DNA of 64,000 nt from Bacteroidaceae bacterium (lineage in GTDB: Bacteria; Bacteroidota; Bacteroidia; Bacteroidales; Bacteroidaceae): contig JAFSKK010000044.1 in NCBI GenBank assembly GCA_017448965.1, positions 62,001-126,000 on the forward strand, written 5' to 3'. How positions within the stretch are numbered: position 1 is the first letter of the stretch; the number at the start of each line of letters is the position of its first letter. Below are positions 1,370-35,287 of this stretch, one piece after another. The notes under the pieces were generated by a model, which was not told where the DNA came from, ran no database searches, and saw nothing but the letters and a program-made list of their open reading frames with translations. The position numbers and the translations under genes were made by a program.

Positions 1370-1483
1370 TGAAACAGCCTCTTTTTTGTTCCTTTCAGTG
1401 TTACACTTGTAACACACCCACTGTTACACTTGTAACACACTCACTGTTACATCTGTAACACTGTAACTGTTACAAATGTTACA
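1370..1483. repeat. Array of four 23-base palindromic units between mlaE- and mlaF-like genes
   Basis: Four copies of a 16-base palindrome (TGTTACACTTGTAACA and variants) start at 1399, 1422, 1445 and 1468, exactly 23 bases apart. Arms are TGTTACA/TGTAACA around a two-base centre, and the fourth copy is degenerate. On the minus strand the array is followed by GAGGCTGTTTCA (1370-1381), which resembles the flank of the arrays at 18503 and 28438. The array fills most of the 219-base gap between the two transporter genes, so it would lie in their mRNA. Confidence 0.85.
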
Positions 1484-18347: not shown

Positions 18348-18502
18348 CACATTTTCACGCCAAATCCACCTTTTTTATTCCATAAAAATGTCTTTTCTGG
18401 AACCATTTCTTGACTTTGTTTAGCGATTTGAAAGATGAACGTCGCTTCCTCTGGTAGGTCTTCGCCTTTGCCTCTCATTCGATGCTTCCACTACCTCAAA
18501 AT

Positions 18503-18584
18503 CGGTGTGAGTCACACCGTAGGGGTCGGTCTGAGTCACACCGAGGGTGGCGGTCTGACTCAGACCGATTATGAGGCTCTTACA
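18503..18584. repeat. Array of three 24-base palindromic units with TGAGGCT flank
   Basis: Three 17-base palindromes start at 18503, 18527 and 18551, exactly 24 bases apart: CGGTGTGAGTCACACCG, CGGTCTGAGTCACACCG and CGGTCTGACTCAGACCG. The first and third are perfect around one central base. The flank TGAGGCTCTTACA follows at 18572-18584 and recurs beside the array at 28438. Apart from this array the gap 18348-18797 holds nothing I can name. No gene is supported there. Confidence 0.85.
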
Positions 18585-18797
18585 CAGGGTTCTTGGAGGT
18601 TGTTGCAGGGAGTAATTGGTGGCACTTACACTACGTTTCAACTCAAAACATGAAAACACAATAAAAACATTTTTACGTTTTTTCATTTTACCCTTCACGG
18701 GGTGGTCTGAACTCAGGAAAAGACTCCTATTTCTTTTTTGTTAATAAATGATCAAATCACCTTTTTATCATTGTTTTTATGTTACTTTGCATACTGT

Positions 18798-27970: not shown

Positions 27971-28321
27971 ATGGCACTAAACAAGAACAAAGACCTAAAG
28001 ATGTTCTACAGCATTGGCGAAGTGGCACAAATGTTCAACGTGACAGAAACTTTGCTTCGCTTCTGGGAGAAAGAGTTTCCAAACATTGCCCCCCAGAAAA
28101 CTGGGCGTGGCATCCGCCAGTACACCAAGGCTGATATTGAACAAGTCAGATTGGTTTACCATTTGGTAAAAGAGCGTGGCATGACGCTGCAAGGCGCCCG
28201 CGACATGATTAGACGTGACAAAAGTGGAGGTGTCAACCGTAATATTGAGGTCATCGAACGCCTCAAGTCCATCCGTTCCGACTTGCAAGCCATCAACAAA
28301 GAATTGAATGGCTTCGTGTGA
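27971..28321 (+). CDS. MerR-family transcriptional regulator
   Basis: A 116-residue protein with the MerR helix-turn-helix FYSIGEVAQMFNVTETLLRFWEKEFPNIAPQKTGRGIRQYTKADIEQ and a short helical tail. It has no cysteine-rich effector domain, so it is probably a DNA-binding protein without a metal sensor. Six bases after pepD and likely in the same operon. Confidence 0.87.
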   Translation: MALNKNKDLKMFYSIGEVAQMFNVTETLLRFWEKEFPNIAPQKTGRGIRQYTKADIEQVRLVYHLVKERGMTLQGARDMIRRDKSGGVNRNIEVIERLKSIRSDLQAINKELNGFV

Positions 28322-28386
28322 ATGTGCGAACCTCTACACCAGAAAACCGCCAACGTCAGTAGCGGAAAACCACCAACGGAACAAAA

Positions 28387-28425
28387 AAAGGGCTGGCAAA
28401 GCAATCATCGCTTTGCCAGCCCTTT
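28387..28425 (+). terminator. Bidirectional terminator
   Basis: A perfect 16-bp stem (28387-28402 with 28410-28425) with a 7-base loop. An A-run precedes it, so it serves the minus strand well too. It lies between the convergent MerR and RelA/SpoT genes. Confidence 0.85.
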
Positions 28426-28437
28426 CAGTTCCACAAA

Positions 28438-28519
28438 ACCGACGTCCCCGATGTCGGTGAACCGATGTCCCCGATGTCGGCAGACCGACGTCGGGGACGT
28501 CGGTTTTGAGGCTATTACA
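28438..28519. repeat. Array of three 23-base palindromic units with TGAGGCT flank
   Basis: Units start at 28438, 28461 and 28484, exactly 23 bases apart; each is a roughly 21-base palindrome with outer arms ACCGAC/GTCGGT. The third has 9-bp perfect arms around GGG. The flank TGAGGCTATTACA (28507-28519) matches that of the array at 18503 at 12 of 13 bases. The palindrome sequence is unrelated to the other arrays. Confidence 0.85.
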
Positions 28520-28556
28520 TAAATCTTGAGGAGGAAGTTCAATGAGGGAAGTCCCA

Positions 28557-30800
28557 TCATATACGAGAGACTTCTTTCACATCCTGTATAACACGAAGAC
28601 CCGCAATAATTTCATCCGTCTCCTTCGTGTCGTGTACAACCATCTGTATGGTGCACTCAAAGATACCATCTTCGCACGTCACCTCCAATTTGTGGATATT
28701 GACACCATGCAACTGGGAAATCACCTGCGTCATCTCGTGAAGCAACCCCATTTTATCGAAGCCTCTCACACGGATACTTACCGGGAAAAGTGCCTTCCCC
28801 CCCGTTTTCCATTCCGCACCCAACACACGATTGCCGTGATTGGCCTTCAGTTTCTCGGCTTTCGGACACTGCAACTTATGGATAATGATATGCTTGTCGT
28901 CGTCAATATACCCCATGACCGTATCACCTGGTATTGGTTTGCAACAATCACACAATGTATACTTCTTCTGGAGCGTTTCCTCTGTTAGTGACAGAATTTG
29001 TTTCTTGTCGAAATTGGGGCCTATCTTCTCTTTACCACCTGTTTGGCTCTGTTTGGCAGACTTCTTGCCGAAGGAGAAGAGGCGTTTCCACCCTGCCACC
29101 TCATTCTTCTGCCTCAACGCATCTGCGTCAGAGCGTCCCAACTGCACCTTACCTTCTGCGATGGCCACATACAAGACATCAGGCTTAGCAAGATTGTGTA
29201 TGGTACACAACTTATCAATAATGAGGGTATCTTTCGGAAGGTCATTCCCTTTCAAGAATTCATCAAGCATCGCTTCTCCCCTCTTGCGATATTCACGCTC
29301 TTCCTTGCGAAGAATGGAGAGTATCTTTGTCGTGGCTTTAGCAGTCGTGGCAATATTGAGCCACTCACGGGTGGGATGAACAGACTTTGAGGTCAGAATC
29401 TCTACCTGGTCACCACTTTGGAGCACATAACTGATAGGCTCAAGTTTGTGATTCACCTTGGCACCTATACAATGGCTACCCACAAAGGTGTGGATGCTGA
29501 AGGCAAAGTCAAGCGTGGTGCTACCTGCCGGCATCGTGCGCAGTTCACCTTTCGGAGTGAAGACAAAAATCTCGGAAGCAAAGAGGTTCAACTTGATGGT
29601 GTCAAGAAAATCCATCGCATCAGGCTGTGGATCATCCAGTATCTCCTTGATGGTAGCCAACCACTTGTCCAGTTCAAGTTCCGAAGCTGTTTCTGTCTTA
29701 TCACCATCCTTGTATTTCCAATGCGCGGCAAAACCCTTCTCCGCAATATCATCCATGCGACGTGAACGGATCTGTACTTCAATCCATTCACCCTGTTTCG
29801 ACATCAGCGTCACATGCAATGCCTGATAGCCATTGGCTTTGGGATGACTCACCCAATCGCGTGTTCGGTCAGGGTGAGACGTGTATATCTTACAGAGTTT
29901 CACATAGATGTCAAAACAGTCATTCAGTTCCGTATCTATGTCAACAGGATCGAAAATGATACGAACAGCCAGAATATCATAGATTTCCTCGAAAGGAATA
30001 TGCTTGGTCTGCATCTTATGCCAAATCGAATAAGGTGACTTGACACGTTGCTTGATTTCATACGTGATGCCCAAACCATCCAACTGCTTCCGGATGGGAG
30101 CAGCGAACTCAGCAAACACGATGTCACGCTCTTTCTTCGTTGCCTCCAGTTTACCCCCAATCTCCGCATACTCAGCAGGATGTTCAAACTTAAAACTCAA
30201 ATCCTCCAATTCCGTCTTGATAGAATTGAGACCCAGTCTGTTAGCCAACGGAGCATAGATATAGAGCGTTTCTCCTGCAATCTTGTACTGCTTGTTGACG
30301 GCCTGGCTGCCCAATGTACGCATGTTGTGCAAACGGTCAGCAATCTTGATGAGGATCACACGGATGTCATCACTCATCGTGAGAAGCAGTTTCTTGAAGT
30401 TCTCAGCCTGTGCTGACGCATGATCGCCAAAGATACCACCAGAGATTTTGGTCAGACCATCCACAATCTGGGCAATCTTGGGACCAAACATGTTCTCGAT
30501 ATCCTCAACTGTGTAGTCGGTATCTTCCACCACATCGTGCAAAAGGGCAGAACAGATAGACGTAGAGCCAAGACCAATCTCGCAGCACACAATCTTGGCT
30601 ACTGCTATCGGATGCATGATGTATGGTTCTCCTGACAAACGGCGCACACCCTTATGAGCATGCTTCGCAAAGTTGAACGCTTTGGTTATCAGCTCAACCT
30701 TTTTGCGATGCTTGCTGGCAAGATAAGCCGTAATCAAGCTTTGAAACTCATCATTGACCATCTGTTCGTCATTCTCAAAACTCGTCATCACTGCATCCAT
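28557..30800 (-). CDS. RelA/SpoT-family (p)ppGpp synthetase/hydrolase
   Basis: A 747-residue Rsh enzyme: HD hydrolase domain (H62, then SALLHDVVEDT with H88, D89), synthetase domain (KSPYSIWHKMQTK, YDILAVRIIF, GYQALHVTLM), TGS domain (VFTPKGELRTMPAGSTTLDFAF) and a C-terminal ACT domain. Both catalytic halves look intact, so it is probably bifunctional, controlling the stringent response. It is the last gene of the parA-parB run. Confidence 0.93.
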   Translation of the reverse strand: MDAVMTSFENDEQMVNDEFQSLITAYLASKHRKKVELITKAFNFAKHAHKGVRRLSGEPYIMHPIAVAKIVCCEIGLGSTSICSALLHDVVEDTDYTVEDIENMFGPKIAQIVDGLTKISGGIFGDHASAQAENFKKLLLTMSDDIRVILIKIADRLHNMRTLGSQAVNKQYKIAGETLYIYAPLANRLGLNSIKTELEDLSFKFEHPAEYAEIGGKLEATKKERDIVFAEFAAPIRKQLDGLGITYEIKQRVKSPYSIWHKMQTKHIPFEEIYDILAVRIIFDPVDIDTELNDCFDIYVKLCKIYTSHPDRTRDWVSHPKANGYQALHVTLMSKQGEWIEVQIRSRRMDDIAEKGFAAHWKYKDGDKTETASELELDKWLATIKEILDDPQPDAMDFLDTIKLNLFASEIFVFTPKGELRTMPAGSTTLDFAFSIHTFVGSHCIGAKVNHKLEPISYVLQSGDQVEILTSKSVHPTREWLNIATTAKATTKILSILRKEEREYRKRGEAMLDEFLKGNDLPKDTLIIDKLCTIHNLAKPDVLYVAIAEGKVQLGRSDADALRQKNEVAGWKRLFSFGKKSAKQSQTGGKEKIGPNFDKKQILSLTEETLQKKYTLCDCCKPIPGDTVMGYIDDDKHIIIHKLQCPKAEKLKANHGNRVLGAEWKTGGKALFPVSIRVRGFDKMGLLHEMTQVISQLHGVNIHKLEVTCEDGIFECTIQMVVHDTKETDEIIAGLRVIQDVKEVSRI

Positions 30801-35022: not shown

Positions 35023-35033
35023 CATTCTAAAGT

Positions 35034-35133
35034 GTGGGCGCTAATGGAGTGTTTTCAACGAACCGTCATCTTTTTCCACTTTGTGGGCGCTGACGGAGTG
35101 TTTTCAACGAACCGTCATCTTTTTCCACTTTGT
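35034..35133. repeat. 49-base tandem repeat carrying the tRNA-Val 3' end
   Basis: Two full 49-base copies start at 35034 and 35083. The tRNA-Val 3' end begins a third copy at 35132, in phase. Each copy contains GTGGGCGCTGACGGA (first copy with two changes), the complement of the tRNA 3' end, plus AACGAACCGTC, which resembles the T-loop. Confidence 0.9.
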
Positions 35134-35207
35134 GGGCGCTGACGGATTCGAACCGCCGACCCTCTGCTTGTAAGGCAGACGCTCTGAACCAGCTGAGCTA
35201 AGCGCCC
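35133..35207 (-). tRNA. tRNA-Val (anticodon TAC)
   Basis: 75 bases including the discriminator A; acceptor GGGCGCT/AGCGCCC, D-arm AGCTCAGCTGGTTCAGAGC, anticodon loop CTTACAA (TAC), T-arm CGGTTCGAATCCG. Co-transcribed with tRNA-Pro upstream. Confidence 0.95.
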
Positions 35208-35214
35208 GTGTTGG

Positions 35215-35287
35215 TCGGGATGACACGACTCGAACGTGCGACCCCTTGGTCCCAAACCAAGTATACTACCAACTGTACTACATCCCG
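35215..35287 (-). tRNA. tRNA-Pro (anticodon TGG)
   Basis: 73 bases; acceptor CGGGATG/CATCCCG, anticodon loop TTTGGGA (TGG), T-arm CACGTTCGAGTCGTG. Seven bases upstream of tRNA-Val, with a strong promoter before it. Confidence 0.95.

Follow-up and report, generated by a model that had tools for sequence, protein, structure and literature searches.

The window, by which we mean the whole stretch of 64,000 nucleotides that was analysed, comes from a Bacteroidaceae genome (G000, a 3.03-Mb draft in 74 contigs, 85.6% complete) and carries the palindromic arrays 1, 2 and 3. Array 3 lies between a MerR-type regulator gene and a convergent RelA/SpoT gene. The features discussed below are as follows.

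27971..28321, plus strand: MerR-type regulator gene, neighbour of array 3
28386..28426, minus strand: ordinary, strong intrinsic-terminator-like hairpin adjoining array 3 on the left
28422..28434, minus strand: array 3 left arm, mirrored and decayed, CTTTCAGTTCCAC, by comparison with the consensus
28438..28458, unstranded: array 3 X unit 1, loop CCC
28461..28481, unstranded: array 3 X unit 2, loop CCC
28484..28504, unstranded: array 3 X unit 3, loop GGG, perfect 9-bp arms
28508..28520, plus strand: array 3 right arm motif, copy 1, decayed, GAGGCTATTACAT, from the consensus of the arm-motif survey
28531..28543, plus strand: array 3 right arm motif, copy 2 at +23, GAGGAAGTTCAAT, from the 23-nt pitch
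28557..30800, minus strand: RelA/SpoT gene, neighbour of array 3
1395..1483, unstranded: array 1, Z palindromes TGTTACAnnTGTAACA at 23 nt
18485..18497, minus strand: array 2 left arm, intact, CTTCCACTACCTC
18502..18568, unstranded: array 2, three Y units at 24 nt
18573..18585, plus strand: array 2 right arm, copy 1, GAGGCTCTTACAC
18596..18608, plus strand: array 2 right arm, copy 2 at +23, GAGGTTGTTGCAG

Array 3 contains three 21-nt quasi-palindromes that start at 28438, 28461 and 28484, which confirms the exact 23-base spacing of three palindromes described in the initial annotation. Unit 3, a 9-bp palindrome with a GGG centre, is the only perfect unit of the trio; units 1 and 2 carry C/T changes in their arms. 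In a scan for long mirror symmetry, array 3 gave 31 of 42 pairs, against 0 matches in block-shuffled sequence (one shuffle per contig). When folded as single-stranded DNA, the element is predicted to form one rod on either strand, in which unit 1 pairs with unit 3 and unit 2 lies at the tip (z -9.1 and -7.7 on the two strands, with 0 of 200 shuffles reaching the former). Because of the symmetry scan and the fold, a chance origin of array 3 is unlikely. The rod was predicted for 4 of the 7 strands folded and is shared by two other elements; in array 2 it is units 2 and 3 that pair, and array 1 has a different fold.

Within the set, the hairpin arms gave no covariation: variable positions do not preserve local pairs, and pair 6-16 of X unit 2 was complementary in 0 of 17 cases, with 8.2 expected. 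The X units are directional. On the CCC strand, 49/54 of them have CG or TG in both arms and hence at most G-T wobbles, so that changes keep these wobbles on that strand only. The loop orientations of 19 trios fall into two of the four possible classes (11 CCC and 7 CCG, with one of another type). This directionality could reflect strand-biased mutation or pairing on one strand.

A search of the window for known RNA families returned nothing beyond three tRNAs at gathering scores. Elsewhere in the window, a 49-nt tandem repeat (35033-35146 and 35133-35287) runs into two adjacent tRNA genes.

Mirrored arms and the 23-nt pitch

The initial annotation had proposed that arrays 2 and 3 have the same flank. 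The flank is real, and it is one decayed arm of a mirrored pair. Taken alone, the 13-mer TGAGGCTATTACA, found at 28507-28519 beside array 3 and with one change at 18572 beside array 2, is unremarkable: it has 13 matches in the window at up to 3 mismatches, where chance predicts 13.3, and 13 genome-wide at up to 1 mismatch, where the reversed control gives 14. We rejected it as a genome-wide tag, given this lack of excess. What recurs is the arm motif TTTTGAGGNNGTGGAAG, which stands mirrored on both sides of the core and is repeated outward at 23 nt. The further TCTTG-AGG match to array 2 comes from a second copy of the arm, which lies 23 nt beyond the first in each array, at 28531 (array 3) and 18596 (array 2).

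We surveyed the arm motif in elements with 150 nt on both sides, using a strict unit pattern that under-counts decayed units. Exactly 23 nt separate successive copies of GAGGNNGTGGAAG in 47/72 gaps, and 7 gaps are of 46 nt; 162 matches have the expected orientation and 5 the opposite one. Pairs of arm copies at the 23-nt pitch gave 77 and 74 genome matches at up to 3 mismatches, compared with 29 and 16 for the reversed control.

At the loci read, X and Y trios have common mirrored arms, CTTCCACTRCCTCAAAA ... TTTTGAGGYAGTGGAAG, which are often decayed. The arm motif also flanks, on a single side, one of the three W arrays read (TTCATAAGTTATGAA, 21 nt; the other two had no arm) and the only T array read (CCGTAATTACG, 23 nt). 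Array 1, which is kept in the sister species G010 with 4 units, matched the motif weakly, and arrays made of the arm motif alone are also present. The earlier observation of a like architecture around unlike repeats is thus borne out for X and Y, with the arm extending to one W and one T array.

Tandem Repeats Finder reported ten arrays of period 23, nine of 21, four of 24 and one of 19 in 464 kb of G000, and none of period 20, 22 or 25-27. In 364 kb of G010, it reported 16 of period 23, ten of 24, seven of 21, three of 22, one of 20 and two of 19. Part of the 21- and 24-nt arrays may be coding sequence.

Other repeats were seen in G000. W palindromes at 21 nt, in about four units, lie at C13:90322, C11:30632 and C11:50512. 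In a further inverted-repeat family, tandem AGTGAAA-like repeats face a mirror copy, most with AATTTGCTACCGCA inside; at least six copies lie in 464 kb (C13:100126, 104004, 116470 and 134979; C11:36919 and 49673).

Copy number, distribution and gene context

With up to 2 mismatches allowed, G000 contains 138 sites of the X palindrome seen in array 3 (reversed control, 2) and 99 of the Y palindrome seen in array 2 (reversed control, 1). The palindromes had been thought idiosyncratic and unlike REP families. With these copy numbers they are more REP-like than was supposed, and one part of the claim that stands is that cores of two unlike types occur within the same arms. Three is the usual number of units, at a pitch of 23 nt for X and 24 nt for Y: trios make up 17/20 X and 14/17 Y matches at loci from several genomes, the others having one, two or four units. 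These counts leave out a single X unit that is a chance match (L095) and a single Y unit that is a remnant in G007 (L061). Under a stricter unit pattern, 40 of 55 elements have three units.

The arm-to-arm pattern occurs in 6 of 45 same-genus genomes, the source genome among them. A species-level genome collection yielded 21 stretches with this pattern, 16 of them in MAGs titled Prevotellaceae or Bacteroidaceae; the remaining 5 are unrelated chance matches in other taxa. Of 251 genomes sampled from the family, 9 have tandem X units; all 9 belong to the 17 drawn from this genus, and 0/234 genomes of the other 29 genera have them, with a reversed control of 0 throughout. X arrays are present too in G007, which lies outside the 251-genome sample. 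Within the sample, the X repeat is restricted to this genus, whose members are uncultured and Prevotella-like. We also considered carriage of the element by phages and rejected it, as the arm-to-arm pattern had 0 matches in viral contigs. The hexamer GTCGAC is scarce in both sister genomes (128 occurrences versus 429 expected in G000; 220 versus 468 in G010); this scarcity as a restriction site neither explains nor excludes anything.

Gene context was tabulated with a simple ORF caller. Twelve of 36 arrays overlap a called ORF, and the other 24 lie in 6 divergent, 5 convergent and 13 tandem gaps, compared with 84, 49 and 259 of all intergenic gaps. One X trio stands in frame within a long NRPS-like ORF in three species:

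C13:14230-14296 in G000 (L092): ORF of 1367 aa, loops CCC/CCC/CCC
C3:22105 in G010 (L225): ORF of 1346 aa, loops GTC/GAC/GAC
C11 in G043 (L226): ORF of 1362 aa, loops GGG/GGG/GGG

A domain scan of the G000 protein alone places the trio between the carrier (PP-binding) and reductase (NAD_binding_4) domains. Three 23-nt units amount to 69 nt, so the reading frame is kept. As the loops differ by species, the encoded linker has changed with the core. For the NRPS pair, 49/67 core positions are identical compared with 966/1133 in the flank (p 0.013, weak taken alone). This copy demonstrates that the core can vary with no apparent regard for the encoded protein. In G006, the same carrier-reductase linker has its own short repeat array (L227).

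These contexts bear on the possibility that the arrays are transcription terminators or mRNA 3'-end hairpins. Such a role would suit the A and T runs that flank the hairpins on both sides, the position of array 3 between convergent genes, and the pairing of 49/54 X units with at most G-T wobbles on the CCC strand. Against it, a strong terminator-like hairpin already stands beside array 3, which was itself not called a terminator; a third of the arrays overlap an ORF and the rest are spread over divergent, convergent and tandem gaps; and termination is difficult to square with the copy that three species carry within a long ORF. We consider this role distinctly unlikely.

Core turnover, gain and loss at orthologous loci

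The initial annotation had expected that, between pepD/merR and the RelA/SpoT gene of related strains, the palindrome would change while the flank stays. RelA matched in 44/45 genus genomes. In 40 of these the identity is 69% or more, over the whole protein or a part of it; the remaining matches showed a paralog of 37-39% alone. MerR stands beside RelA in 9 of the 30 RelA loci read. At this junction the sister species G010, with a RelA identity of 98%, has no array and carries just a different terminator-like hairpin. The G043 junction likewise has no array, that of G007 has a decayed Y-like unit, and that of G008 has one different palindrome with TTTTGAGGCTGTG. Unlike palindromes do occur at the merR-relA junction, and one inherited flank cannot be claimed there. 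At the G015 junction (L066), we observed an AT-rich four-unit palindrome array with perfect outer inverted repeats.

We then compared elements at orthologous places in G000 and G010, over part of each genome and with both flanks required for placement. Of 46 G000 elements queried, 15 were placed (31 were not): 11 are shared, 2 are down to one unit and 2 are absent in G010. In the reverse direction, 11 of 25 were placed (14 were not), and 1 is absent in G000. Six X loci have a unit left in both species. In four of these, all the units that remain have switched loop type, with GGG/CCC in one species and GTC/GAC in the other; the other two loci are unchanged. Ortholog identity at two of the switched loci (0.73 and 0.75) is below that of the closest paralogs, which is 0.96 and 0.99 within G000 and 0.81 and 0.91 within G010. 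One of the unswitched loci has an ortholog (0.91) nearer than its best paralogs (0.81, 0.87). The dominant loop differs between the genomes, with GGG/CCC to GTC/GAC at 22:3 in 866 kb of G000 and at 6:27 in 739 kb of G010.

The sharpest case is a locus in G007 and G026, which was noticed by eye before testing, the best pairs having been chosen by eye. Its core is identical at 48/67 positions and its flanks at 629/670 (Fisher p 1.6e-7), with four units with CCC/GGG loops in one species and three with GAC/GTC loops in the other. In all four Y pairs compared, conservation of the core roughly equals or exceeds that of the flanks, and core replacement is therefore shown for X only. A palindrome that changes while its flank stays is found at some orthologous X loci, where the core has changed as a block; the Y pairs gave no such turnover. 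Some X loci are near-identical across species, core included: L238 (G007) with L252 (G043), and L242 (G030) with L248 (G026), to which L249 (G029) is, by eye, likewise near-identical. Since, among the matches listed, G026, G029, G030, G031 and G036 have GTC/GAC loops, one odd unit apart, GGG is probably the newer X loop type.

Species-typical loops of this kind would also be expected if the arrays were binding sites for a DNA-binding protein, such as a chromosome-organising factor, and the core tracked the changing specificity of that protein in each species. The dyad symmetry and the fixed 23-24-nt pitch in unlike cores and arms speak for this idea, as do the Y units of G029 and G030: in the one Y element seen in each, all three units have AGA..TCT where G043 reads TGA..TCA. 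It is at odds with the several core types that occur side by side in one genome, with the copy within a coding gene that switched type too, and with the lack of copies at orthologous places in the sister species. We therefore hold a binding-site role to be rather unlikely.

Whole units are lost or gained in steps: 23 nt at L157 compared with C55, and 63 nt, or 3 x 21, at a W locus, the place in G010 orthologous to the W array C11:30632 having one degenerate unit. In G010, units are more alike within than between elements (0.862 versus 0.824, a value reached in 0 of 500 shuffles). Both observations would fit a plain minisatellite that slips without exchange between loci. In G000, units are no more alike within than between elements (0.920 versus 0.916; 134 of 500 shuffles reach the value), a small set of loop types keeps recurring at many unlinked loci, and paralogs exceed orthologs in identity at the two switched loci. 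Slippage as the whole explanation, already disfavoured for X, is highly improbable.

Neither a target-site duplication nor a clean empty site was found at the two G000 elements absent in G010 or at the one absent in the other direction; at loci without the element, the intergenic sequence has diverged. Mobility is thus inferred. At one place in G000 (C13:141131-141197), an X trio absent in G010 lies at the 3' end of a gene whose reading frame, on inspection by eye, seems to continue into the array.

Relation to known repeats and interpretation

In layout, the nearest system by description is BOX of Streptococcus pneumoniae and S. suis, which in the excerpted account has end modules and variable tandem middle modules, is foldable and varies in length between strains (PMC3049150). 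As that account gives it, BOX of S. suis places unlike ends around the same middle boxB, whereas the present repeat has unlike middles between common ends (PMC3049150). Its ends, unlike those described for BOX, are mirrored copies of one short motif, and its middle units, usually three, are themselves palindromes. BrickBuilt, a MITE of Porphyromonas gingivalis, is likened by description: it too is an interspersed element of the Bacteroidales with a 23-nt tandem repeat and inverted ends (PMC4596501). According to the excerpt, BrickBuilt has 1 to 22.8 repeats, a leader that can reach 285 nt and a tail that can reach 318 nt, with IS5-like ends, and is reported as always intergenic (PMC4596501). 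Against that description, the present repeat is set apart by short arms of GAGGNNGTGGAAG repeats and by mostly three units.

CGTC REPs, including two Rickettsia palindromic elements, likewise have 8-9-bp stems, are dispersed and lack a dedicated transposase, and intragenic and in-frame copies of them are known, as far as the excerpts describe them (PMC3733652, PMC10969869). For insertion into coding sequence, the Rickettsia palindromic elements are the nearest parallel. In the same accounts, CGTC REPs have loops of 4-5 nt, a CCA tail and a CGTC tag that is unpaired; most of their dimers are head-head, and head-tail dimers are negligible (PMC3733652, PMC10969869). X differs in having no unpaired tag, 3-nt loops and tandem trios; by eye, the letters CGTC lie within the paired arm. 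We rejected membership of the CGTC REPs on the absent tag and the 3-nt loops.

A further candidate explanation is that the arrays are REPs spread by a RAYT, or a MITE that a resident transposase mobilises. REP/BIME sequences with RAYT are likewise described as dispersed short palindromes in composite structures (PMC3733652, PMC2817692); the present copies are dispersed, palindromic and numerous, have mirrored ends and differ between species. Moreover, Y1_Tnp scores over the cut-off in 14/45 genus genomes, including G030, where 28 tandem X matches accompany a match of 29.9 bits in a 328-aa frame. By comparison with REP/BIME, the palindromes here form tandem trios with mirrored arms and have no constant GTAG tag: by eye, GTAG occurs in arm copies that read GAGGTAG only, others read GAGGCAG, GAGGCTG or GAGGTTG, and the palindrome feet vary. 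No Y1_Tnp match was seen in G043 or in the 85.6% complete G000; G010 scores below the cut-off only, G026 and G029 give nothing above it, and no target-site duplication was found. Assignment to the GTAG REP/RAYT group was rejected for want of a constant foot GTAG and of Y1_Tnp in G000 or G043, and movement by a RAYT or resident transposase appears improbable. A literature search on palindromic intergenic repeats of Prevotella returned no paper, and among the titles listed for repeats of rumen Prevotella and for Bacteroidetes palindromic repeats with concerted evolution, none described the element. We group it with the small interspersed palindromic repeats, as a variant set apart from REP/RAYT and CGTC REP and, by description, from BOX and BrickBuilt.

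The reading that we favour, with somewhat better than even confidence, takes array 3 as a member of a family of small, non-autonomous palindromic repeats, interspersed in the genome, in which recombination probably homogenises the X core from copy to copy. In each copy, a core of 19-21-nt quasi-palindromes, usually three and set 23-24 nt apart, would stand between outward repeats of the arm motif GAGGNNGTGGAAG (23-nt pitch) and their mirrored counterpart. Copies would come and go between species and sit mostly between genes, in any orientation; a protein linker tolerates one of them in frame. Within a genome, recombination or gene conversion between dispersed copies would probably homogenise the X core, and slippage would lead to loss or gain of units. 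The layout, the copy number, the restriction to the genus within the sample, the differences in presence and absence, and the turnover of the X core are established. We infer recombination as the agent, the hairpin as an intermediate and the absence of a host function.

The pitch of 23 nt shared by unlike units is not accounted for by a homogenised repeat. An alternative that we regard as somewhat unlikely would turn this pitch into the central feature: the constant mirrored arms on a 23-nt ruler would act as a slot in which whole cores are swapped as cassettes and homogenised across the genome, so that sister species converge on different cores. If so, the pitch common to unlike cores (X, Z and T) and to the arms would suggest that a dedicated enzyme or protein recognises geometry and not sequence.

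Interspersed bacterial palindromes are usually recognised by their conserved palindrome. Here, unlike cores have their arms and layout in common, and whole X cores are replaced as blocks at fixed loci, one of which lies within a gene. The 23-nt pitch, also found in BrickBuilt of P. gingivalis as excerpted (PMC4596501), raises the question of a common Bacteroidales mechanism. The element offers a natural system for asking how short dispersed bacterial repeats evolve in concert.
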